Assembly (NCBI GenBank): GCA_027068765.1
Contig: JAMOMC010000112.1
Location: 1-62,755, forward strand
Source: Campylobacterales bacterium
GTDB taxonomy: Bacteria; Campylobacterota; Campylobacteria; Campylobacterales; QNZT01
Direction: 5' to 3'
DNA length: 62,755 nucleotides
The notes under the pieces are model-generated. The model saw only the letters and a list, made by a program, of their open reading frames with translations. It did no database searches and was not told the origin of the DNA. The translations under genes and the position numbers were made by a program. The stretch's first letter is position 1; each line of letters starts with the position of its first letter. Shown piece by piece: positions 34,142 through 46,159 of this stretch.

Positions 34142-34736
34142 ATTTTACTATATTTTGATAATAGCTATTTTGATGAGTGGGTGCAAAGGTGTAGATCTCA
34201 TAAAAGATAAAGAGAATATAGAAGTTGATATTGATTTGGATACAGATGTATCTCAAGGATTAGAGGCTCACAATAGTATTAGAGATAGGTTTTTTGATAA
34301 AGCATTAAGTTGGAGTGCTAAGCTACAAAAAGATGCACAAGATTATGCAAATAAGTTAGCAAATAGTGGAAAATTTGAACACGATCCTAAAAACATAGAT
34401 AAGAACTATGGGGAAAACCTTTATGCAAGTGTTAGTGGTAAGAGTAAAATCCCTACATTTAAAGATGCAGTTGAAAATTGGGCTGTTGAAGAGAGGTATT
34501 ATAACTATAGTGATAATAGTTGTAGTGTAGATGCAGGTAATACAGATAAAGTTAATCTTACAACATATAATACTTGTGGACACTACACACAGATAATTTG
34601 GAAAAGTACCTCTTATTTAGGTTGTGCTAAAGCCAAGTATAAAACAGGTGAGTTAAAAGATGGATATATCATCGTTTGCAAATATAGCTCACCTGGAAAT
34701 ATAGTTTTTAATGGTACAGCACTAAAGCCATATTAG
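34131..34736 (+). CDS. CAP (SCP/PR-1)-domain lipoprotein
   Basis: 201 residues. A lipoprotein signal ends LMSGC (Cys18). The CAP domain follows with EAHNSIRD, a His in FEHDP, GENLY, and [11 protein letters not shown], the characteristic HYTQ motif. Two cysteines ([14 protein letters not shown]) could pair with the later GCAK and VCKY. Bacterial CAP proteins are exported and often bind lipids or peptidoglycan; no enzymatic role is clear. It overlaps argH and converges with the HIT gene, sharing 4 bp. Confidence 0.88.
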
Positions 34737-35089
34737 AGAGATTTATGAGTCTCTTTTGGGCTAAAGTGAGGCCAGCTAAGTTTAGTTCCACCTAAAAGAT
34801 GAAAATGAAGATGTGGTACTTCTTGTCCACCATCTTCTCCATTGTTTAAAATCAATCTATATCCGCTTAAATTTAAACCCATTTTTGAAGCTACTTCTTG
34901 AATAAATGGAGTTATATTAGCCATAAGCTCACTAGATGCATCTTGAAATTTCTCAACATGAGCTTTAGGAATAATCAAAAGGTGAATTGGTGCTCTAGGA
35001 TTTACATCATGAAAACATAAAAATTCTTCACTCTCTAATATCTTATTTGATGGAATTTCTCCATCTACAATTTTACAAAATATACACAT
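34733..35089 (-). CDS. HIT-family (HinT-like) nucleotide-binding protein
   Basis: 118 residues, starting MCIFCKIVDGEIPS with the two CxxC cysteines typical of HinT, and the catalytic histidine triad HLHFHLLGG near the C-terminus. It hydrolyses aminoacyl- or purine-nucleoside phosphoramidates. AAGGAG precedes the ATG. It lies 22 bp downstream of the AAA+ gene and could be the last cistron of the large operon. In Campylobacter the HIT gene is, from memory, next to pheS, which here lies 10 kb away. Confidence 0.93.
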   Translation of the reverse strand: MCIFCKIVDGEIPSNKILESEEFLCFHDVNPRAPIHLLIIPKAHVEKFQDASSELMANITPFIQEVASKMGLNLSGYRLILNNGEDGGQEVPHLHFHLLGGTKLSWPHFSPKETHKSL

Positions 35090-35111: not shown

Positions 35112-36752
35112 TTATTGTAAATGAGCTTTGTTTTGATATATTTTAGGGATTAAACTTCTATATGTAGAAAATTGTGCTGCATACTTGGCTTGTTGTTGGC
35201 GTTGAGATTTGACTATATCAAAATTAAGATCTTTTACAATCTCAACAATATCAAGATTGGGCTCAATCTCTAATTCAGATGCAACTTCATATACCATCAT
35301 ACGGATATTATCACTTGAAAAACCCTCTGTGTATTTGACAAGTTCTTGTCTTTTTTTATATTTTTTTATATCTATACCTTTGCTTTGAAACATTAACTCG
35401 ATAAATGAGCTTCTCTCATCTTTGTTAAGGTCAAAAATTGGTAATTTTATCTCAATTCGACGTTGAAAGTCTACTGGAAACATTTGTGGTCTTGATGTAT
35501 TAAAAATCCAAAATACTCTCCCTCTATCGCTATTATCTGCCATCCAATCAAGAAATATTGCTGTTAGTTCTTGATCTGTTTGATGTGCCTGTTTTGCTTG
35601 TGGATCTGGAAAAAGTTTATCAGCTTCGGATTTAAAGATGGCGATTTTGTTAAAAGATTTAGCTACCATTTTAATTTTTTCTAAAATTACAGCAGTCTCT
35701 CCATACCATTTTGATTTAATAGTTTGAAGTTTCATAATGGGAATTCCAGCTTCATATAAAAAAGCTTCTGTTTGAAAATCTTTACCAGTACCAGTTGCTC
35801 CAATATAAGCTATAGCTCTCCAAGGATTTTTACTATTCATTCTTTTTATTAAAGTGCGGGCTTTAGCTTTTAAATCTTCATATCCTATCACTTGTTCAAA
35901 TCCATAAGTAGGATGTAGTACCTTCACATGGCTTCCAAGGCTTTTTTCAATAATCTTAGCTACCTCATTTTTTATATGTGCTGTAATTCTTTTAGGCTCT
36001 TGTTTTAAAATAGATTGAAGTGTTACAAGTGTTATGCCAGCACTAAGTGCTGCAATCTCTTTTATCTGTTCATCTTTAATACCTTTATCATAAATAGCAT
36101 TTTCATAAGATATAAAAGCAACTCTTGTCTCTTCATCTGGCAGTGGTACTTCTATTTGATATAGTCCCATTATCGCTCTAACACCTTGTGAAATTGCTAA
36201 AAAGCTCTCTGATAATAGTATTACAGAGTCACTAGAGTTTGTAAACTCTCCGCTACCTAGCATCTCTCTTGCTAAAGATAAAATAAGTCTTTCATCATTA
36301 CTCATATGCTCAACTGGTTTATTTGGAAAAACAATATCAGCATCATCAATTAAAACTACTAAGTTTTTTAACTCTGTATCTTTATATTTTTTTCGCATTT
36401 CTCTATATGAGGAGAGTAGAACTTTTATCATATGAAGTCCAGATAAAATATCATATTTTGTATGTGCATAGTCCAATGAAAAAGCTTTTTGGTGAATCTC
36501 TTTTAGAGTAGGGTCAATTGAATAAAACTCATCTAAATCTCTTTTATCTGTATATTTTATACCAACAGAGGGGCTAAAGTAGAGAAGATGATTATTTTTT
36601 TGTAGTTTTTCAATGAGAATCTCTTCAATCTGTTTTACATTTTGTCTATTTTTCTCTTTATATATTGCAATATCATTAATATTTCCAGTTACTGCAAATA
36701 GATTTGTAGCCACACTTTTATATGCATAGGCGATCTCATTATATAGTTTCAT
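35112..36752 (-). CDS. Double AAA+ ATPase with complementary degenerate motifs
   Basis: 546 residues, no signal or membrane segment. The N-terminal half (about 1-260) contains a Walker B-like LVVLIDDAD (131-139) but no P-loop where one is expected (LLYFSPSVGIKY). The C-terminal half has a P-loop GATGTGKDF (Lys324) but a degraded Walker B, FKSEAD (373-378), and a sensor-like FWIFNTSRP, then RRIEIKLPIF and a helical lid. It resembles the classic AAA clade (Rubisco activase, CbbX or spastin-like) in the second half. It overlaps the ABC ATPase gene by 14 bp, so it is a fixed part of the importer operon. Confidence 0.75.
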   Translation of the reverse strand: MKLYNEIAYAYKSVATNLFAVTGNINDIAIYKEKNRQNVKQIEEILIEKLQKNNHLLYFSPSVGIKYTDKRDLDEFYSIDPTLKEIHQKAFSLDYAHTKYDILSGLHMIKVLLSSYREMRKKYKDTELKNLVVLIDDADIVFPNKPVEHMSNDERLILSLAREMLGSGEFTNSSDSVILLSESFLAISQGVRAIMGLYQIEVPLPDEETRVAFISYENAIYDKGIKDEQIKEIAALSAGITLVTLQSILKQEPKRITAHIKNEVAKIIEKSLGSHVKVLHPTYGFEQVIGYEDLKAKARTLIKRMNSKNPWRAIAYIGATGTGKDFQTEAFLYEAGIPIMKLQTIKSKWYGETAVILEKIKMVAKSFNKIAIFKSEADKLFPDPQAKQAHQTDQELTAIFLDWMADNSDRGRVFWIFNTSRPQMFPVDFQRRIEIKLPIFDLNKDERSSFIELMFQSKGIDIKKYKKRQELVKYTEGFSSDNIRMMVYEVASELEIEPNLDIVEIVKDLNFDIVKSQRQQQAKYAAQFSTYRSLIPKIYQNKAHLQ

Positions 36753-37665
36753 TTACATTCTCCAAGTTGTTTTGTTGTCGTGCATCTGGGTGTTCGAGTG
36801 AGAAATTTTTCTCATCTTGTCTAAATTTAGGGTTAAAACACTCATGTTTTACTCTCTCAATCCATTTTATTGTAAAAGGTGATTTGATTCTCTCATTCAT
36901 TGAAATATTTTGACCATTTAGAGGGTGTGCAGAGTCAAATGCAATTTTAGCTCCACTTTGATTACCATCATAGTGAGGAGTTAATGCTAATAATCTTGTT
37001 GCCAATGCAGGAACATCTCCATCTAAATCATGTGTGACAAATATAATAGTTAAGTTATTTTTCTCTTTAAGTTCTATTAAGTTTTTTCGCATAGCCATTT
37101 TAGTCTCTGGGTCAAGTGCAGAGAAAGCTTCATCCATTAATAATACAGAAGGCTTTAGTGCTAAAGCCGAAGCAATTGCAACTCTTTGTTTTTGTCCACC
37201 TGAGAGTTGATGAGGATATTTAAGTGCATGTTCATCCATCTCAACAAGCTTTAAATTTTGTATAGCTATTTTTTCAAGACTTTTCATAAAAGGTGTTTTG
37301 ATTTTAAATAATTTTAATATATCATACATAAGATTTTTCATAAAACTGCACTGGTCAAGATATAACCCTTGGGTAACATTTCCAACTGCTGTATAGTTTG
37401 GAAAAAGTGAATAGTTTTGTGCTATAAATCCCATATGGCGATTTGGGCCTCTCACTTTTTGATTTTTGACATTTATGATACCACGACTTGGAAGCTCTTC
37501 TCCCAATATTTGACGAAGTAGTGTTGATTTGCCTGCTCCTGATGGACCAACAAAACAGACTATCTCTCCTTGTCGAATACTTAAATTTACCGATTTTAAA
37601 ACATGATGTTTTCCATATGAAACATCTAGATTATCTATTTGAATAAGGTAATTATCATTTTTCAT
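36739..37665 (-). CDS. ABC transporter ATP-binding protein (NitT/TauT type)
   Basis: 308 residues with Walker A GPSGAGKST, signature LSGGQKQR, Walker B VLLMDEAFSALD and the switch His in FVTHDLD. The core matches SsuB/TauB/NrtC. It carries a C-terminal extension of about 70 residues (from LLALTPHYDG) rich in charged residues, with the motifs IKWIERVKHEC and RQDEKNF; this is longer than usual and might contact the AAA+ protein. The start shares one base with the permease stop. Confidence 0.92.
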   Translation of the reverse strand: MKNDNYLIQIDNLDVSYGKHHVLKSVNLSIRQGEIVCFVGPSGAGKSTLLRQILGEELPSRGIINVKNQKVRGPNRHMGFIAQNYSLFPNYTAVGNVTQGLYLDQCSFMKNLMYDILKLFKIKTPFMKSLEKIAIQNLKLVEMDEHALKYPHQLSGGQKQRVAIASALALKPSVLLMDEAFSALDPETKMAMRKNLIELKEKNNLTIIFVTHDLDGDVPALATRLLALTPHYDGNQSGAKIAFDSAHPLNGQNISMNERIKSPFTIKWIERVKHECFNPKFRQDEKNFSLEHPDARQQNNLENVNETI

Positions 37666-38483
37666 TATTTACTTCCTAAATACCACGGGTATCGTTTTTT
37701 TATAATAAACTCTATTGAGAAGAAAATTGTCATAGCAATAATGGTAATTAATATAATGTATGGAAATATAATATCATTTGCTGAAAATCGTTTTAAAATA
37801 AAAATACGAGTACCTAAACCATATTGAGCACCAAGTGTCTCTCCATAAAGTAATGCAAACCATACAAGAGGCAGGTTTATCTTTAATGATTGTAAAATGC
37901 TTGGCATTATTATGTATAAGTTTTCTCGTCCTATTTCCCACTCACTTGCACCTTTTGTAAATAGTAGAGTGTTTAGATTTCGAGGTATTTTTTTTATCTG
38001 ATTTACAATATCTTTAACTAGTACAAAAAACAGTGCTAAAAAGATAAAAAGTATACTAAGCTCATATCCAGGGTCTGCTATTAAAAATAGTATAGGCACA
38101 ATAGCGGCAGGAGGTACGGAACTAAAAACATTAACTATCGGCATTAAACTTGCATTGATAAACGGAAAAGTTCCTGCTAACACTCCTATACAAAGTGCAA
38201 AGATAAAAGCTAAAGAGATTCCTGCAAATAGTGAGCCCATAGAGGCTTTAATATCTTCTACAAATTGATTTGTGCCACTTCGTTTATCGATTTTAATTAC
38301 AAAAGTTGACATTGAGTCATACATTTTTGATATGCTAGGAAGTACCTTATCTCTAGGATTTTCTAAAAGACGCTCTTTTGAGAAGTGGTCATATATAAAA
38401 AATGCCATTAAAAATGGTAAAAAACCCAACACTAACCGCCCCCAAAGAGGTACTTTGGCACGGTTTCCAAACTTAAATCGCAT
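37665..38483 (-). CDS. ABC transporter permease (NitT/TauT type)
   Basis: 272 residues with about six membrane helices and the binding-protein-dependent permease core: GSLFAGISLAFIFAL, SVPPAAIVPILFL and the EAA-like loop with KGASEWEIGRENLYIIMPSI that contacts the ATPase. A single permease gene implies a homodimer. N-terminal residues 1-15 are basic and cytosolic. It sits 10 bp after the binding protein gene and overlaps the ATPase gene, so the three form a complete importer. Confidence 0.92.
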   Translation of the reverse strand: MRFKFGNRAKVPLWGRLVLGFLPFLMAFFIYDHFSKERLLENPRDKVLPSISKMYDSMSTFVIKIDKRSGTNQFVEDIKASMGSLFAGISLAFIFALCIGVLAGTFPFINASLMPIVNVFSSVPPAAIVPILFLIADPGYELSILFIFLALFFVLVKDIVNQIKKIPRNLNTLLFTKGASEWEIGRENLYIIMPSILQSLKINLPLVWFALLYGETLGAQYGLGTRIFILKRFSANDIIFPYIILITIIAMTIFFSIEFIIKKRYPWYLGSK

Positions 38484-38493
38484 TTTTTAAACC

Positions 38494-39480
38494 TTATTTA
38501 ATATCAAAATAGATTGTTGCAGGAACTTTTGTATCTCCGCCATTTTTATCATCTAATTTATAACTTATACTATCAGCTAAAAATTCATTCTCTACTGCTA
38601 AATTGTATGTATCTTTTTGTAGTGTTGGTAGAGAATTTTTAAAAAACTCTAGTTCTTGTTTTGGAGAGAAAATCTTTGCACCATTTAACATAGTTTTAGC
38701 TTCTCCTACTGAAGAACCCATATCATCGGCGATTGCTAACATAAAATTGTTATACTCTTTACCTCTTTTTGAGTGAATAACACTCGCTGTCTTATCCCAA
38801 CAAGCCCTTAAAAAAGCTGCTTTTTTATCAAAATTTTCAACATTTTTACCCAAAACAATCATATCGATGATAAGACCTGGAAAATCTGCACTTGAGGCGA
38901 TTGTCTTTTTTGATTTGGTCTGCTGAAGAAGATACTCAAGAGCAGGATTCCAAGTGACTATATTGTCAATTTTACCAGCATCATAAGCTGAACGAAGGTT
39001 TGAGTCTAAATCCATATGTCTTATCTTAAAATCTTTATAAGGATCAAAACCTGCCTTTTTAGCTGCTTTTATCCAAAGTTGCTCTGAAATTGACTTTGTA
39101 ATCATCCATATTTCTTTGCCTTTTAAATCACTAATTGTCTCTGCTTTTCTTGAGATAACACCATCATTTCCATTACTAAAATCTTGTAAAACTACAGATA
39201 CACTTGGACGAGAACTAATGGCAGTCATTTGATCTAAATTTGTAACAGTAACCGCATCAGCTTTTGTGGATTTGAAGTAATCCAATGATTGTAAATAATC
39301 AGGATAATAGACAATTTTTAATTTACAATTGTGCTCTTTTTCAACACTTTTATATAGACCTGAATTTTGAGATGCATTTATTGCATTCCAATTTACATAT
39401 GCTGATGTTGTGAGAGTTACATCACAATCAGATGCAAATAATTGCATAGATGCAAAAGCTAAAATATATATTTTTTTCAT
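38494..39480 (-). CDS. ABC transporter substrate-binding protein (NMT1/urea-carboxylase-region type)
   Basis: 328 residues with a Sec signal peptide (residues 1-16, ending LFASDC). The mature protein has the NMT1/SsuA-like pattern: YVNWNAINASQNSGLY near the N-terminus, PDYLQSLDYFKSTKADAVTVTN and later IVTWNPALEYLL. It resembles binding proteins annotated from urea-carboxylase loci, but no urea carboxylase is present and the ligand is unknown. It is the free binding protein of the importer; two related domains occur upstream fused to OmpA-like domains. Confidence 0.82.
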   Translation of the reverse strand: MKKIYILAFASMQLFASDCDVTLTTSAYVNWNAINASQNSGLYKSVEKEHNCKLKIVYYPDYLQSLDYFKSTKADAVTVTNLDQMTAISSRPSVSVVLQDFSNGNDGVISRKAETISDLKGKEIWMITKSISEQLWIKAAKKAGFDPYKDFKIRHMDLDSNLRSAYDAGKIDNIVTWNPALEYLLQQTKSKKTIASSADFPGLIIDMIVLGKNVENFDKKAAFLRACWDKTASVIHSKRGKEYNNFMLAIADDMGSSVGEAKTMLNGAKIFSPKQELEFFKNSLPTLQKDTYNLAVENEFLADSISYKLDDKNGGDTKVPATIYFDIK

Positions 39481-39498
39481 TTTTTTTCCTTTAATTAA

Positions 39499-40293
39499 TT
39501 AAATATTTCGTTCTGTTTTTACTGCTATTTTACTTCCACTACCAGCCTCTTTGGCTTTTTTGGAAGCTGCTCTTTTGGCTAAAATTTCTTGTAATTTTGC
39601 ACTACTTTGTGCTGCTTGACCTTTTGCTTTATATCTTTGCATTCTTTTATCTGTATCTGCACCAGAAGCTCTTGAGAGTGTTTTTGCTGTAGCTCTTTTT
39701 TTGTTAATAGACTCACGAATAGCATCAACACCTGAACGGTCAATAGATTTTTTAAGACCCATCTCCTCTTTGGCAAGATTTGCCTCAAGTGTTGCAAGTG
39801 CCAAGTCTGATACAGACTCCTCTTCTTCTCTTTTTAAATCTGTAATTTCATCTTTGATTTTATTTAGCATCATCTGCTTATCTTCGAGATTGTTTTCCAT
39901 TTCAGCAATCTCATTAATAAGACTCTCTTGCTCTTTATCAATCTCCTCTTGTCTAGAATCTAAGCGATTAAAATCCTCTACAGCTTGCATGTCATCTGGA
40001 CTGTTTTGCACAATTGTGATAATTCCTTCAAGTGAGTGTTGAAGCTCTATTTCCTCTTTATTAAGTTTTTCTAAGAGTTGCTCTTTTTGTGCTTTAATAT
40101 TTTCAATACCAGCTACACCACTAACAACTTGCTCAAATTGTTCAACTAATTGATCACGAAGTTCTGAGTATCCAGCTCTAACTCCATCCTCACTTCCTGT
40201 ATATACTCCATCTGCAACACGATTTGCTTTGTATTGTCCTAATGTAATAATTGCCATAAAAATACGACCAATTGCACTTAATAATTTACCCAT
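39499..40293 (-). CDS. PspA/IM30-like coiled-coil protein
   Basis: 264 residues, almost wholly helical: an amphipathic N-terminal helix (KLLSAIGRIFMAIITLGQY), long Glu/Lys-rich heptad stretches (about residues 45-190), then a basic Ala-rich tail (QAAQSSAKLQEILAKRAASKKAKE). This layout fits the PspA/IM30/ESCRT-III-like membrane-remodelling proteins, although identity cannot be proved by eye. It would sit at the inner face of the membrane. The start overlaps the two-TM protein gene by 8 bp, so both are made together. Confidence 0.65.
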   Translation of the reverse strand: MGKLLSAIGRIFMAIITLGQYKANRVADGVYTGSEDGVRAGYSELRDQLVEQFEQVVSGVAGIENIKAQKEQLLEKLNKEEIELQHSLEGIITIVQNSPDDMQAVEDFNRLDSRQEEIDKEQESLINEIAEMENNLEDKQMMLNKIKDEITDLKREEEESVSDLALATLEANLAKEEMGLKKSIDRSGVDAIRESINKKRATAKTLSRASGADTDKRMQRYKAKGQAAQSSAKLQEILAKRAASKKAKEAGSGSKIAVKTERNI

Positions 40294-41104
40294 TGTTATT
40301 TACCCCTTTTTTTTGATATTTTTTATAAATGTTATGCATTTCATCTTCTTTACCATAAGATAATGCATGTAGCTTAGTTTGAACAGTTTTTGCTGCTTGT
40401 ATTGCATCTTGAAGCTCTGAGATATTGAAAATATCCTCCTTTAAATTAGTTTTTGAAGTTACTGTGGCTAAGTTTGTAATAGCCAGCATGTATGAGTGTA
40501 AGATACTTTGAAAACTTTTAGTTAGTTTTTGTAGATTATTTTCATTATGTTCATACGATTTTATAATAGCTTCTATTTTAACCTCACTGATATTTATAGA
40601 GTTTTGAATTACTAAAATATCGGCAATTTCAGCAAGTAATTTAGTACCTGTTTCAAATGCTTGTTCTGCTTTTGTTTTGAAACTTGCTCTTATATGTTTT
40701 GAGATGACTCTTTGTTTAGATAGGGCACTATTAAATGCTAAAAATTGTTCTTGTAAATCTAGTTTCATTTTTTGATAAGTTGGATAATATGATAGATCAA
40801 TCATCTCATAATGTTGTATTAGTTTTAACTTACGCTCTTTCTCTTGCTCTTTTAGATATTTTAAAGCTCCCTCTTTGGCAATATCTTCAACTTTATAAAA
40901 CCAGTGCCACCAATAAGAGGTACCAACCATTCCAATAAGTGCCGCCAAATTAAAAAATTGTAAACTTATGGGCCAATTAGCACTCATCATAGAGATTGAA
41001 GAGATTGATGGTAATAAAATACCTGCTAATGTAAGGGAGTTATTTTTAAATCTATTCCAGATATATTTTTGAGTATATCTTTGACTATTATCTTGTGTAA
41101 TCAA
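40286..41104 (-). CDS. Two-TM helical protein, function unknown
   Basis: 272 residues. Two hydrophobic helices lie at about residues 20-40 and 46-66 (LTLAGILLPSISSISMM and FFNLAALIGMVGTSYWW), followed by about 200 residues of predicted helix with Gln/Lys/Glu-rich heptads and no motif I know. The topology suggests a membrane hairpin with a cytosolic bundle, a good partner for the PspA-like coiled-coil protein encoded immediately after it with overlapping reading frames. It could be an anchor or receptor. This is inference from layout only. Confidence 0.65.
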   Translation of the reverse strand: MITQDNSQRYTQKYIWNRFKNNSLTLAGILLPSISSISMMSANWPISLQFFNLAALIGMVGTSYWWHWFYKVEDIAKEGALKYLKEQEKERKLKLIQHYEMIDLSYYPTYQKMKLDLQEQFLAFNSALSKQRVISKHIRASFKTKAEQAFETGTKLLAEIADILVIQNSINISEVKIEAIIKSYEHNENNLQKLTKSFQSILHSYMLAITNLATVTSKTNLKEDIFNISELQDAIQAAKTVQTKLHALSYGKEDEMHNIYKKYQKKGVNNNG

Positions 41105-41113
41105 AATCCCCTC

Positions 41114-42688
41114 CTAATAGTCAATAAAGAGAAGTTCTACTTTATTGTTTTTATTAAGATATTGGTAGTAATTCTCCCCTTTTTTATGTGGTTTAATCCC
41201 TTTTGAACCAAGCCCTAAAGGGTGTAGTCTATTTTTATCAATTGACCAATATTTTGTTAAATAATCATAAACCATTTGAGCTTTTTTTTCTGTTCGTTTA
41301 ACAAGTTTTTGCTCACTAACTCCTCTAGCTTTACCTGATCGTCCAACGATTGCGATATAATAATCAAAATTATTAATGCTATTTTGTGCAAAATCATCTA
41401 AAGTGTTTTTGGCATCACTATTTAGGCGACCATCTCTTAAAAAGGTGATTTTCAGATCATCTCGTGTAAATTTTGGATCTTTTATGAGTTTTTCCCAAGT
41501 TTTGTTAGAGATGCTAATATAACTCTTATCTTCTTTGTGAGGTTTAGAGATACTGCCAGCTGGATATGAGTTAAATACTTTACTTAAAATTCCTGTATAT
41601 ACAATGTTTCTTGAATCACTATTTTTTATAGGATTATCTTCGATAATAGTCATTTTTTTTAATTTTATAGCAATTGCATCTATATAGTCTAATATCTTTT
41701 CAGATGAGTTAGAGTTTGTCTTAAAGAGATTAAAAGCATTGTCATTAAGTGTATAAAGTTTGACTGTTTTTAGTGAAGAGGATATATCAACTTTGTTTAA
41801 ATCACCACCTTGTTTAATCTCAATTTCACTAACAAGAGAGGGTATATCTTGGTTAAAATACTCTACACTCTCATAATAAGTCTTTAAAAAAGTTTGAAGC
41901 TCATTTTTATGATTTGCTAAAAAAGATTGATTTAGTACAATTACATCTATAATTTTTCCAAGTTTTAACTCAGCTGAGTCCATAAGAACAACAAAACCTC
42001 TCTCTTTTGCTTTAGTTATATAAGGCTCCCACAAGCCTACAACATCATATCTACCAGAGAGTAGACCATCGTATGTTATCTGTATATCAGGATTTGCATC
42101 TATCCCTCTTTTGTTTAGAAGTAGTGGTACATTTGCATCAATTGCCATTGAACCGAGCATAAATTGGCTTGTATAAGCGGCTTTAATTTTTTTCATTCCT
42201 TTAAGTGCATCGATGTTTGGAAACTTTTTTGGATTAGCTACAACTGCATCTGAACCCCTTGATTCAGAGATAGCCGCAATAATAAGAGGTATTTTCTCAT
42301 CTTTTTTTTGCATTAAAGAGAGCTGTTGGATATAGTCATGAATTGGCATTACTGCCATATCAATTTTGCCCTCTATCAGTTTTGCAAATCTTTGTGAGTA
42401 GTCTGCATTATCATTATCTAATGTTATTGATATGCCAAGAGCTTCAAGATCTCTTCTAAATCGTTTTGATTCAAGAATAGAGTAGCCTATATATTTGTCA
42501 TATCCTATTTTAATATCTAAATCACTACTGTTTTTTCTCATAAGATTATTGGTTTTTACTTTTGTTACTACATCATCAAAACTTTCTTTAGCACCGCTAT
42601 ATTTCCATATTGCAAGGCTTATTGCAAAGATTAGTGTGAGAAAACCGATAAGTCCAAGAATAGATCTAATTTTACTATTTTTCATCAA
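41114..42688 (-). CDS. Periplasmic substrate-binding domain fused to OmpA-like domain (B)
   Basis: 524 residues. An uncleaved-looking membrane anchor (residues 8-28) is followed by an NMT1/SsuA-type binding domain (about 60-330) with IKIGYDKYIGYSILESKRF, KLIEGKIDMAVMPIHDY and DGLLSGRYDVVGLWEPYI. The C-terminal 130 residues are OmpA-like: YIAIVGRSGKARGVSE, LVKRTEKKAQMVYDYL, LGLGSKGIKP and NNKVELLF, the peptidoglycan-binding fold. It would hold a ligand-sensing domain between the inner membrane and the wall. It overlaps the vWA gene by 4 bp (ATGA). Confidence 0.75.
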   Translation of the reverse strand: MMKNSKIRSILGLIGFLTLIFAISLAIWKYSGAKESFDDVVTKVKTNNLMRKNSSDLDIKIGYDKYIGYSILESKRFRRDLEALGISITLDNDNADYSQRFAKLIEGKIDMAVMPIHDYIQQLSLMQKKDEKIPLIIAAISESRGSDAVVANPKKFPNIDALKGMKKIKAAYTSQFMLGSMAIDANVPLLLNKRGIDANPDIQITYDGLLSGRYDVVGLWEPYITKAKERGFVVLMDSAELKLGKIIDVIVLNQSFLANHKNELQTFLKTYYESVEYFNQDIPSLVSEIEIKQGGDLNKVDISSSLKTVKLYTLNDNAFNLFKTNSNSSEKILDYIDAIAIKLKKMTIIEDNPIKNSDSRNIVYTGILSKVFNSYPAGSISKPHKEDKSYISISNKTWEKLIKDPKFTRDDLKITFLRDGRLNSDAKNTLDDFAQNSINNFDYYIAIVGRSGKARGVSEQKLVKRTEKKAQMVYDYLTKYWSIDKNRLHPLGLGSKGIKPHKKGENYYQYLNKNNKVELLFIDY

Positions 42689-43329
42689 AAATCTTGTAGT
42701 AAAAATTCATTATCTAGGCTAATTTCAGAGTTTATAGCTTTTTTCATAGCCTCAACAAGTTGTTCCACTGATGAAGCTTCTGTAAAATTAGTCACTGATT
42801 TTAAAGTATGACTTCCAATATCAATACCTATTGTTTTTATCTCAATACCCTCATCAATCGCTTTGTCAACAGCTTTTAACATCTCATTTTGTTTATTAGC
42901 CGCACCATCTGTGGCGATTACAATAGTATATGTACCATATCCAGCTTGAATGCTTTTTTGTTTTTGCATCTTATTTACCATTTTATTTATAGCTTTAGCT
43001 ATGGGTGTGGATCCTTTTGCTCTCATTGTTGAGATTATTTTGGTTATCTGTTTGAGACTTTTTTCATCAACTGCTTGAAGAGGAAATTTATAACCATGGT
43101 TTAAGCCATAAAAGCCAAGATTATAGTTATTTGGCAGATGAGATACAAATTTTATAGTAGACTCTTTTGCACGAGATAGTCTTGATTTTTTATTTTTTGC
43201 TTTAACTCTCATAGAGCCACTATCATCAAAAATTATAATGATATTTTTACGAAGCAATAAATCATCACTTGCGAAAGAGTTACTTGAAAAAAGTAGTAGT
43301 GTTAGTATAAGTGCTATTTTTTTTATCAT
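42685..43329 (-). CDS. Secreted von Willebrand factor A-domain protein
   Basis: 214 residues from the ATG at 43329, one base after the upstream stop; this start leaves a proper signal peptide (MIKKIALILTLLLFSSNSFA). The vWA domain has a full MIDAS: DDSGSM (DxSxS), a Thr in GSTPIAKAI and Asp in IATDGAAN. It is expected in the periplasm, binding a partner through a divalent cation. The acidic C-terminus (NEFLLQDF) is short. Position between two OmpA fusion genes suggests that it bridges them. Confidence 0.82.
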   Translation of the reverse strand: MIKKIALILTLLLFSSNSFASDDLLLRKNIIIIFDDSGSMRVKAKNKKSRLSRAKESTIKFVSHLPNNYNLGFYGLNHGYKFPLQAVDEKSLKQITKIISTMRAKGSTPIAKAINKMVNKMQKQKSIQAGYGTYTIVIATDGAANKQNEMLKAVDKAIDEGIEIKTIGIDIGSHTLKSVTNFTEASSVEQLVEAMKKAINSEISLDNEFLLQDF

Positions 43330-43330
43330 G

Positions 43331-45025
43331 TTAAAAATCTTGTATTTCATTAAATTCAGAAATTTCAGCATTATAATTTGTAATTACAAACTCTACACGG
43401 ATATTTTTTAAAAACTGTTTTTTATTGAGAGGTTTTTTATAAACAGGATTATCTCCTCCTTCTCCAAGCACAATTAATCTTGCTGCATCTAGGTTGTAGT
43501 TTCTTTTTTGTGCATATTTGATAATGGCAGATTTGACAGCATTTGCTCTCTCTTTTGAGGTTTGTTTGGCGGCATTTTGTACACTATTTCTCTCTGTTTT
43601 AATTCGTTGTATACTCATAGTTTGAAGATTATTATTAACCCCTGTTACTTTTTTCAAATATCTTTCAACTTTCATAAGTTTAGCTGTTTTATGGCTTTTT
43701 TTAAACTCTACTGCTTTATTCCAAGCTCTTTGTAGTTGAGGGTCAACATTTCCTATTATTTTGATAACCGCACCACCATATGTTGCAGCGAGTCTTATCG
43801 TCTCTTCAAATTCACCTTTATAGGCTGTTTCGCTAAAAGTGCTCTGGTTTGGTTTAAAAAGTATACTTTTTTTAAAGATGTCTTGTCCTTGTCCTTTTAA
43901 ATCTAGTGATTGTATTTTATGTATGACACTAGCTTTTGCTTTTTTATCAAGCTCTGTTATTTTTGCTTTTTTGTCGATTTTTACATCCCAGTTGTATTTG
44001 TCAATTGATAAGTTTTTTGAAGAGATATATCCAGCTTTTGAGTATGCTGAAATGATTTGTGAAGTTTTACGATCAAAGTTCATTAAGTTTGAACTGTTGT
44101 ACAAAAAATTATTTGATCTTTTTTTATTGTGAAAACGAGTCTCATCTCTCATTGCAATAAAATCATCAACTCCTTGTTTGCCTTCTCCAAAAAGAATTTT
44201 TGCTGAAGATTTTATTAGCTTGTCATTTTTGATATTTTCTCTTGATGCAAAATAGCCATCTCTAATTTTTTTAAGTCTATCTCTATTTTTGTTTGCCCAA
44301 TCTTCTCGTACATAAATAACATCTTTTATAGCATCACTCATTACTTTTGTAGAAGTTAATAGATGCAAGTTATCTAAAGCATACTCACCACTAACTAATG
44401 TGGCTGCACTTGGAGAGATTACAAAAGCGATATCGATACTTTTATCTTCAGCAATTGCTGACTCTGGAGAGTTTTCTCCAAATAGATTCTCTGTATATTT
44501 GATAGTAACATCATCAATACTAAGTTTAAGTGAATCTAAAAGTTGAATTAACCATCCCATGTGTGGACCGCCCCACTGAATAGCGATTACTGGTTTTTTA
44601 CCCTTTTTAACCATGGTTTTTAGATAGTTTAAGTTTTTAATCTTTTTTTTGGAGACTATCACATCTGCACCTAAAGAGTCAGAGAGTGAATGAAATAAGA
44701 TCATATCAACTCCAGCTTTTTTTAGTGCATCTACAATCATCACACCAGAGCCGACTGTTTGACGAATAAATGGTGTCTTACCATCAATAACATCATCTAT
44801 TTGCTTGATTGGGTCATCAACAAGCTTAATTCCATTTGGAAAAAGTTTCTCATTATCGATAGAGAGCATAACATCCGCCCAAGTAATTACAGGCATATGG
44901 TAAGAGCTTGAGACTTTTTTTGCCTTTTTCTGTTTGATATGTTTACTAAATGGAGTAGGAGTTATATAGCTTGAAGCATTTAATATGCCAAGAGATAAGA
45001 AGCTTAAAATAAAAAGTCGTAACAT
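43331..45025 (-). CDS. Periplasmic substrate-binding domain fused to OmpA-like domain (A)
   Basis: 564 residues from the ATG at 45025, chosen over longer frames because AAGGAT precedes it and it leaves a signal peptide (MLRLFILSFLSLGILNASS). Residues about 45-330 form an NMT1-like binding domain (VITWADVMLS, RQTVGSGVMIVDALKKAG, VIAIQWGGPHMGWL). The C-terminus is an extended OmpA-like domain (ILFKPNQSTFSE, SKERANAVKSAIIKYAQK, LIVLGEGG, FLKNIRVEFVI). It is the first gene of the operon and a paralogue in architecture of the 41114-42688 protein, though the two sequences differ strongly. Confidence 0.75.
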   Translation of the reverse strand: MLRLFILSFLSLGILNASSYITPTPFSKHIKQKKAKKVSSSYHMPVITWADVMLSIDNEKLFPNGIKLVDDPIKQIDDVIDGKTPFIRQTVGSGVMIVDALKKAGVDMILFHSLSDSLGADVIVSKKKIKNLNYLKTMVKKGKKPVIAIQWGGPHMGWLIQLLDSLKLSIDDVTIKYTENLFGENSPESAIAEDKSIDIAFVISPSAATLVSGEYALDNLHLLTSTKVMSDAIKDVIYVREDWANKNRDRLKKIRDGYFASRENIKNDKLIKSSAKILFGEGKQGVDDFIAMRDETRFHNKKRSNNFLYNSSNLMNFDRKTSQIISAYSKAGYISSKNLSIDKYNWDVKIDKKAKITELDKKAKASVIHKIQSLDLKGQGQDIFKKSILFKPNQSTFSETAYKGEFEETIRLAATYGGAVIKIIGNVDPQLQRAWNKAVEFKKSHKTAKLMKVERYLKKVTGVNNNLQTMSIQRIKTERNSVQNAAKQTSKERANAVKSAIIKYAQKRNYNLDAARLIVLGEGGDNPVYKKPLNKKQFLKNIRVEFVITNYNAEISEFNEIQDF

Positions 45026-45154
45026 TATCAATATCCTTAAAGGTGTAAATTTAAAATCTTCTGCTAATATCGACAAATAAGTAAAATTGTTTAGTTTTAG
45101 AGGCACTTTTAATCTACTTTTATATACAATTTGCAAAAAAATTATAGGTCTATT

Positions 45155-46159
45155 TTGGAAAAATTACAAGAGTTAATCAAATCTGCTGATACTTTAAAAG
45201 CATTAGAAGAGGTTAGAATTGAGATATTTGGTAAAAAGGGTGTTTTGGCTTTAGAATTTGCTAAGATGAAGAGTGTGCCAAATGAAGAGAAAAAAGCATT
45301 TGCACAAAATCTAAACATTCAAAAAGCGAAACTTACAGATATTTATGAGACAAAGAGGTTAGTTTTAGAGTCTTTTGCACTTAGGCAGATGATGAGAGAA
45401 GATGGTGTTGATGTCACTTTGTTTAACGGCATAAATGAGAGTGGAGCTTTGCATCCTGTAAATGAGACTATGAATAAAATTATCGACTATTTTGTGAGTA
45501 TGAACTTCTCTTTAGAAGAGGGTAGTTTTATAGAGGATGATTTTCATAATTTTGAAGCATTAAATCTCCCAAAACACCACCCAGCTAGAGATATGCAAGA
45601 TACATTTTATCTAAATGATGATTTAGTTTTAAGAACTCATACCTCACCTGTTCAAATTAGAACTATGATGAGAGAAGATGTAAAACCTCCAATTCGCATG
45701 ATAAGTCCAGGGTCTGTTTTTAGAAGGGATTTTGATGTTACTCATACTCCTATGTTTCATCAGATTGAGGGTTTGGTAGTTGATAAAGCAGGAGAGATAT
45801 CGTTTGCTAATCTTAAGTTTATTTTAGAGGATTTTCTTCGTTATATGTTTGGAGATGTTAAGGTTCGGTTTCGTCCTAGTTTTTTTCCTTTCACTGAACC
45901 TAGTGCTGAGGTGGATATATCTTGTGTCTTTTGTGATGGCTTGGGGTGTCGTATCTGCTCTAAAACAGGATGGCTTGAAGTGTTAGGTTCTGGAATGGTT
46001 GATCCAAATGTTTTTAAAGCCGTAGGTGAAGGATATGAAGATGTTAGCGGGTATGCTTTTGGACTTGGTGTTGAGAGGTTTGCAATGTTGATTCATAAAA
46101 TTCCAGATCTAAGATCTCTTTTTGAGGGAGATATAAGATTGTTGGAGCAGTTTAGATGA
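45155..46159 (+). CDS. pheS: Phenylalanyl-tRNA synthetase alpha subunit
   Basis: 334 residues from the TTG at 45155, with TATAGG 7 bp before it; a TTG at 45131 would add eight residues without a good ribosome site. N-terminal coiled arm, class II motif 2 ([25 protein letters not shown]) and motif 3 ([12 protein letters not shown]-like GLGVERFAM). A short Cys-rich insert ([12 protein letters not shown]) precedes motif 3. Divergent from the ABC/PspA operon across 129 bp that must hold both promoters; TATACAAT at about 45122-45129 may be its -10. Confidence 0.95.

Follow-up and report, generated by a model that had tools for sequence, protein, structure and literature searches.

An operon of OmpA-fused binding proteins, ABC importer genes and a PspA-like protein in a Campylobacterales contig, with relatives on plasmids and large phages

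In the window analysed here, the whole 62,755 nucleotides of contig JAMOMC010000112.1 from a Campylobacterales bacterium (assembly GCA_027068765.1), we detected an operon of nine minus-strand open reading frames (ORFs; 35112-45025). It combines the genes of an SsuABC/NMT1-type ATP-binding cassette (ABC) importer with two fusions of a substrate-binding protein (SBP) domain to an OmpA-like domain (SBP-OmpA), a von Willebrand factor A (vWA) protein, a two-transmembrane-segment (2TM) protein, a PspA-like protein and a double AAA+ protein. We consider it somewhat probable that the products form one envelope-spanning complex around the importer, coupled to membrane maintenance. The most likely function is import of a small solute by this wall-anchored complex. 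The locus is a variant, here called type I, of a broader PspA-coupled SBP-OmpA/ABC system that is also present in phages and plasmids. In order of transcription, the operon contains the following genes (values are E-values), with the best promoter-like site given last.

43331..45025, minus strand: SBP-OmpA 1 (paralogue A), secreted NMT1/SsuA-like binding domain and OmpA-like domain (Pfam OmpA 1.8e-3, NMT1_2 0.026)
42685..43371, minus strand: secreted vWA-domain protein, real start possibly 43329 (VWA 5.1e-12)
41114..42688, minus strand: SBP-OmpA 2 (paralogue B), N-terminal transmembrane (TM) anchor, binding domain and degenerate OmpA domain (NMT1_2 8.5e-5)
40286..41104, minus strand: 2TM membrane protein, N-terminal hydrophobic hairpin and cytosolic helical region (homologues in L002, the Vibrio plasmids and a 595-kb phage, all described below)
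39499..40293, minus strand: putative PspA/ESCRT-III-like coiled-coil protein (helix topology and profile comparison)
38494..39480, minus strand: free periplasmic SBP, TIGR03427/SsuA-like (TIGR03427 8e-39)
37665..38483, minus strand: ABC importer permease, TauC/SsuC-like (BPD_transp_1 1.3e-12; TauC 6.6e-17)
36739..37665, minus strand: ABC importer ATPase (ABC_tran 1.5e-31; motifs intact)
35112..36752, minus strand: double AAA+ protein (AAA 1.1e-12 at residues 317-437)
45141..45169, minus strand: promoter-like site TTGTAA-17-TATAAT on the coding strand, upstream of the first gene (consensus match only)

All nine ORFs that a preliminary description of this DNA had placed here with gaps of at most 18 bp are present. 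Intergenic gaps measure 10, 18 and 9 bp and overlaps 14, 1, 8 and 4 bp, while the vWA ORF extends 41 bp into the first gene when counted from its first ATG and does not reach it when counted from an in-frame Met at 43329. Pfam and NCBIfam together call AAA, ABC_tran, BPD_transp_1, NMT1, NMT1_2, VWA and OmpA in the operon proteins. Internal terminators, named in that description as something that might split the transcript, are at chance level on the coding strand: none is convincing, one site is weak, and there are five sites in all against 4.2 expected.

The gene set recurs as a unit. A metagenome-assembled genome (MAG) from a marine glass biofilm (L002) encodes all nine genes in the same order, with 50-75% identity where aligned and different flanks. 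Eight-gene counterparts are present in the Vibrio megaplasmids pIFO15640, pAM7 and pSEA1 (ATPase, SBP-OmpA 1, vWA, SBP-OmpA 2, 2TM protein, TelA, free SBP and permease, with no AAA+ gene), where TelA occupies the slot of the PspA-like gene (L005:14009-22793, L006 and L007). Another is found in LR756511, a 595-kb sequence labelled uncultured phage that encodes a terminase large subunit (SBP-OmpA 1, vWA, SBP-OmpA 2, 2TM protein, PspA-like protein, free SBP, permease and ATPase). In this 595-kb phage, the genes next after the operon are GroES-like and DnaJ-like (L009:19707-21103). Two reduced loci have no adjacent transporter genes: the G404 locus read (L013:5590-9624) contains only an SBP-OmpA/vWA/SBP-OmpA triad, and Vibrio coralliilyticus p380 (L023:9863-12908) an SBP-OmpA/vWA pair. 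Recoding of TAG in L013 was rejected, as the apparent read-through corresponds to two adjacent genes. In IMG/VR, no type I operon was found with profiles A1, A2 or the 595-kb phage protein.

The tree of SBP-OmpA proteins separates the two fusions into a paralogue A clade (support 100/100) and a paralogue B clade (100/99), each holding the same carriers, which points to duplication before spread and to inheritance as a set. This congruence, together with the kept gene order, rules out a chance cluster. The view of the preliminary description that the nine genes are one linked set thus holds; its concern that they might rarely co-occur elsewhere applies only to the full nine-gene form, the components being found together in the MAG, the Vibrio plasmids and many phages.

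The paralogues also differ in their N termini, signal-peptide-like in paralogue A and with a TM segment in every copy of paralogue B. An Asp and an Arg of E. coli OmpA and Pal contact diaminopimelate. Both residues are kept at these positions in paralogue A of six of the seven type I loci, the window included, the exception being V. coralliilyticus, where Arg is lost. In paralogue B, Asp is lost everywhere and Arg also in the window and L002; the window protein has G and K in their place. Pfam gives no OmpA call for the product of 41114-42688, but the aligned Vibrio orthologue scores OmpA at 1.2e-16; both predicted fusion genes are supported, the second through this orthologue for the OmpA part. 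Binding to peptidoglycan, assumed for both OmpA domains in the preliminary description, is retained as a prediction for 43331-45025 but not for 41114-42688, which has lost both contact residues. SBP-OmpA 2 matches phrog_25518, the family of Bacillus phage G gp249, over nearly its full length (E 1.5e-6, 97-498 of 526), and the fusion itself therefore looks common by descent.

A related five-gene core (CC1, PspA, SBP-OmpA, permease and ATPase) is present in phage G, Lak phages, a 735-kb phage and some 40 IMG/VR contigs. Searches with the 595-kb phage protein matched phage G gp249 and 15 Lak phage records; gp249 in turn matched two 735-kb records, Lak and one gut fragment, and the 735-kb phage protein also matched a 462-kb phage over 59% of its length. 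The order in phage G, gp243-gp250 (L021:4986-12071), is permease, ATPase, CC1, PspA(-like), SBP-OmpA and SBP-OmpA, both fusions being TM-anchored, and that in Lak-A2 (L022:6334-12700) and the 735-kb phage (L024:7904-13662) is CC1, TM-PspA, SBP-OmpA, permease and ATPase. Scanning IMG/VR with an SBP-OmpA profile gave 31 loci, 29 of which have a PspA gene. An independent scan with a PspA profile gave 35 loci, all 35 with SBP-OmpA beside PspA and 33 with the permease as well. Combined by contig name, the two scans comprise 43 contigs including phage G, some of them fragments whose viral nature rests on the IMG/VR classification; of the records tested for a terminase, 13 of 28 in one set and 11 of 15 in a second, overlapping set have one. 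Restriction of the module to phages above 460 kb was rejected, since terminase-bearing IMG/VR contigs of 100-250 kb carry it, some of which may be fragments. On one 7.5-kb fragment (L033:214-3533, IMGVR_UViG_2820250282_000001), an SBP-OmpA gene adjoins a terminase large subunit gene, with neither permease nor PspA present.

The OmpA domains of the phage types (among them L021, L025 and L034-L058) differ at the contact positions, with only Arg kept in the phage G type and both Asp and Arg in the Lak/735 type. This difference could follow the wall type of the host. Phage G itself is an isolated, cultivated phage of a Gram-positive host. Trees of permease and ATPase recover type I, Lak/735 and phage G groups, with a root relative to TauC/SsuC and TauB/SsuB that is not settled. 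For this reason we would claim only a common architecture and homologous SBP-OmpA fusions for type I and the phage types; that the operon as a whole arose once is not proven.

The importer genes are those of an SsuABC/NMT1-type system: an NMT1-type SBP, a BPD_transp_1 permease and an ATPase with Walker A, signature, Walker B and H-loop all intact. The free SBP scores 133.7 bits against TIGR03427, below the curated cut-off of 333.9, and the nearest solved relatives are nitrate- and sulfonate-binding proteins. As predicted beforehand, the secreted 42685-43371 protein has a VWA domain. Its metal ion-dependent adhesion site (MIDAS) motif DxSxS-T-D is intact, with residues invariant in six homologues.

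For the 39499-40293 protein, PspA-like is the best reading, suggested by topology and profile. An AlphaFold model (pTM 0.47, confident over residues 50-160) has a helix at the N terminus and a long hairpin, with helices at 4-32, 35-97 and 102-224, and the nearest PDB structure is VIPP1 (E 0.022, not significant). Against viral and phage PspA, the profile of the window protein scored 35.5, compared with a maximum of 25.1 in 40 shuffles that kept the heptad register. Among the viral PspA proteins themselves, four exceed the PF04012 cut-off of 33.9 bits (L025, 42.4; L052, 42.0; L051, 36.7; L036, 34.0), the rest of the set being below it or without a match, and no locus of the window genome is above it. 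The 2TM protein has no significant family match in Pfam or NCBIfam, and hhalign found nothing between its profile and viral PspA. Searches of solved structures with the PspA-like and 2TM profiles gave chance coiled-coil matches only.

The double AAA+ protein aligns with enzymes of the Cdc48/Msp1/Vps4 clade. Its N domain lacks a P-loop, and in its C domain GATGTGKD replaces GxxGxGKT and FKSEAD replaces the Walker B hhhDE, substitutions that L002 has in common except for S to P (FKPEAD). Neither domain has the canonical Walker A and B pair of an active Vps4/Cdc48-type ATPase, and the protein is likely a structural partner. The AAA+ partner that the preliminary description had paired with PspA is present as a gene, but with both P-loop domains degenerate it is not safe to take this protein as the energy source for PspA remodelling.

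The operon was acquired horizontally. It lies between a HIT-family gene (34733-35089) and pheS (45131-46159), and in four congeners (G002, G003, G004 and G005) these two genes are immediate neighbours, which identifies the operon as an insertion in the window lineage. Among 298 genomes of the phylum one has the AAA+ gene, and among 59 relatives one has the PspA-like gene, which rules out a phylum-wide trait. A profile search of the genome contigs, made with the least conserved protein of the operon, returned one locus. The GC content of the operon (31%) matches that of its flanks (33%).

The gene content, domains, state of the motifs, conservation, horizontal acquisition and joint occurrence of PspA with SBP-OmpA and the permease follow from the computations themselves. 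From these features we infer a physical complex, import activity and a coupling of import to membrane maintenance, arranged as follows. Secreted SBP-OmpA 1 (43331-45025) would be held on peptidoglycan by its OmpA domain, and SBP-OmpA 2 (41114-42688) would be anchored in the inner membrane, with the vWA protein probably linking the periplasmic parts via its metal site. The free binding protein would hand solute to the permease. On the cytosolic face, the PspA/ESCRT-III-like protein and the membrane-anchored helical protein may coat or stabilise the membrane round the transporter, and the catalytically degenerate AAA+ protein may act as an assembly partner in the window lineage. The wall-tethered importer with a cytosolic membrane-scaffold module that the preliminary description proposed stands as anatomy, in the linked set, the OmpA fusions and the PspA-type genes, but one OmpA domain and the AAA+ protein are degenerate.

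Several points weigh against this arrangement. The PspA-like protein has no match to PF04012 at E<=0.05, nor to any Pfam family, and its model has no Foldseek match at E<=0.001; of the coiled-coil assignment made earlier, the helix topology, the profile signal and the presence of PspA-type genes in such operons speak for it, while the missing PF04012 match and the VIPP1 similarity of only E 0.022 do not. Accessory genes vary, with TelA in Vibrio, the AAA+ gene at two loci only and three genes in L013. The TIGR03427 score of the free SBP is far under the curated cut-off, and the permease and ATPase trees do not prove that type I and the phage types are one clade apart from Tau/Ssu. The complex model itself is a computational prediction.

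Instead of an importer, the operon might encode an envelope sensor or mechanotransmission machine, in which tethered binding domains read the state of wall or periplasm. The cycle of the ABC ATPase would serve to signal to the PspA scaffold or to recruit it, in the manner of FtsEX or Bce-type ABC proteins, which act in signalling and not in transport. We regard this as unlikely, though it is the rival that we take most seriously. Three binding domains per permease, two of them with OmpA domains, a MIDAS-bearing vWA protein, a cytosolic PspA or TelA, and the L013 triad without an adjacent transporter are all consistent with it, whereas the complete ATPase motifs, the TauC/SsuC-like permease and the importer-type free SBP kept in all complete type I loci argue for import. 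The resemblance of the free SBP to TIGR03427 and SsuA, and nearest solved relatives that bind nitrate and sulfonate, would suit an ordinary importer of urea, amine, sulfonate or a similar nutrient whose operon gathered unrelated stress genes. We find this improbable: PspA-type genes adjoin SBP-OmpA in every one of the 35 PspA-anchored viral loci, unlike incidental neighbours, and the duplicated SBP-OmpA and vWA genes travel together across phage, plasmid and chromosome.

That the carriers are phages and megaplasmids, with the window copy a rare insertion, could also indicate a phage-competition module for superinfection exclusion or defence, found on phages, plasmids and the occasional chromosome. 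This we hold to be the least probable reading, a slim chance at best: no component has a convincing PADLOC match (only generic ATPase and coiled-coil similarities), which speaks against a known anti-phage defence system, and no nuclease, toxin or lysis domain was found. Import by a wall-anchored complex remains the favoured function, and a broader proposal can be put forward tentatively, at somewhat less than even chances. In large tailed phages (phage G, Lak, the 595- and 735-kb phages and others), PspA-coupled, wall-anchored SBP-OmpA/ABC complexes may be a recurrent machine for taking over the envelope, one that imports a solute and shores up the host membrane in long infections, the window operon being a variant exchanged between phages, plasmids and chromosomes.

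The operon joins nutrient-type ABC importers, peptidoglycan tethering and ESCRT-III/PspA scaffolds, which are usually studied apart. The largest known phages have this combination too, and most PHROG families of these proteins bear the label of unknown function. These are candidate genes for the open question of how, in the course of infection, phages with genomes near 500 kb maintain a living host with a sealed membrane, and because phage G is cultivated, the role of gp243-gp250 is directly testable. The main texts of the huge-phage and Lak phage papers examined do not mention the operon, and the Jug phage paper notes a pspA-like gene next to terD. The phage G record annotates gp243, gp249 and gp250 as permease-like and OmpA/MotB; as far as we found in the literature, these parts had not been put together.

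Compared with SsuABC/TauABC importers, the operon has the same NMT1/SsuA-type binding proteins, TauC-like permease and complete ABC ATPase, but two of its binding domains are fused to OmpA, vWA and PspA-like partners are added, and the permease is on a long branch away from TauC/SsuC. The predicted amphipathic N-terminal helix and long helical hairpin would resemble PspA/IM30/Vipp1 of the ESCRT-III superfamily, and viral counterparts match PF04012. The window protein differs in lacking that match and in having a transporter as partner; with no PspF, PspB or PspC nearby, a canonical Psp operon is ruled out. TelA (PF05816), which takes the PspA-like slot beside the homologous 2TM protein in the Vibrio plasmids, has no detectable sequence relation to the window PspA-like protein, and homology of the two was rejected after hhalign gave nothing.

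The closest known system is the set of bacterial operons of PspA/Snf7-TM, double AAA+, ABC ATPase, permease and PBPB-OmpA described by Ravi et al. 2024 (PMC11237479), with OGG56892.1 as published example. The preliminary description knew of no named system with this set, a statement that this earlier work overturns. The window has the same component classes, its PspA being identified by topology and profile, and the double AAA+ protein of those operons likewise has an inactive N-terminal copy; in the window the second AAA+ domain is degenerate too. Ravi et al. 2024 (PMC11237479) also suggested a link between membrane remodelling and solute transport, with OmpA binding peptidoglycan and PBPB binding solute, as we do here. 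Their main text does not include vWA, paired SBP-OmpA genes, TelA or viral occurrence. The gene association is partly known; the apparently new elements are the vWA, paired-SBP and TelA variants and the repeated occurrence in the largest phages.

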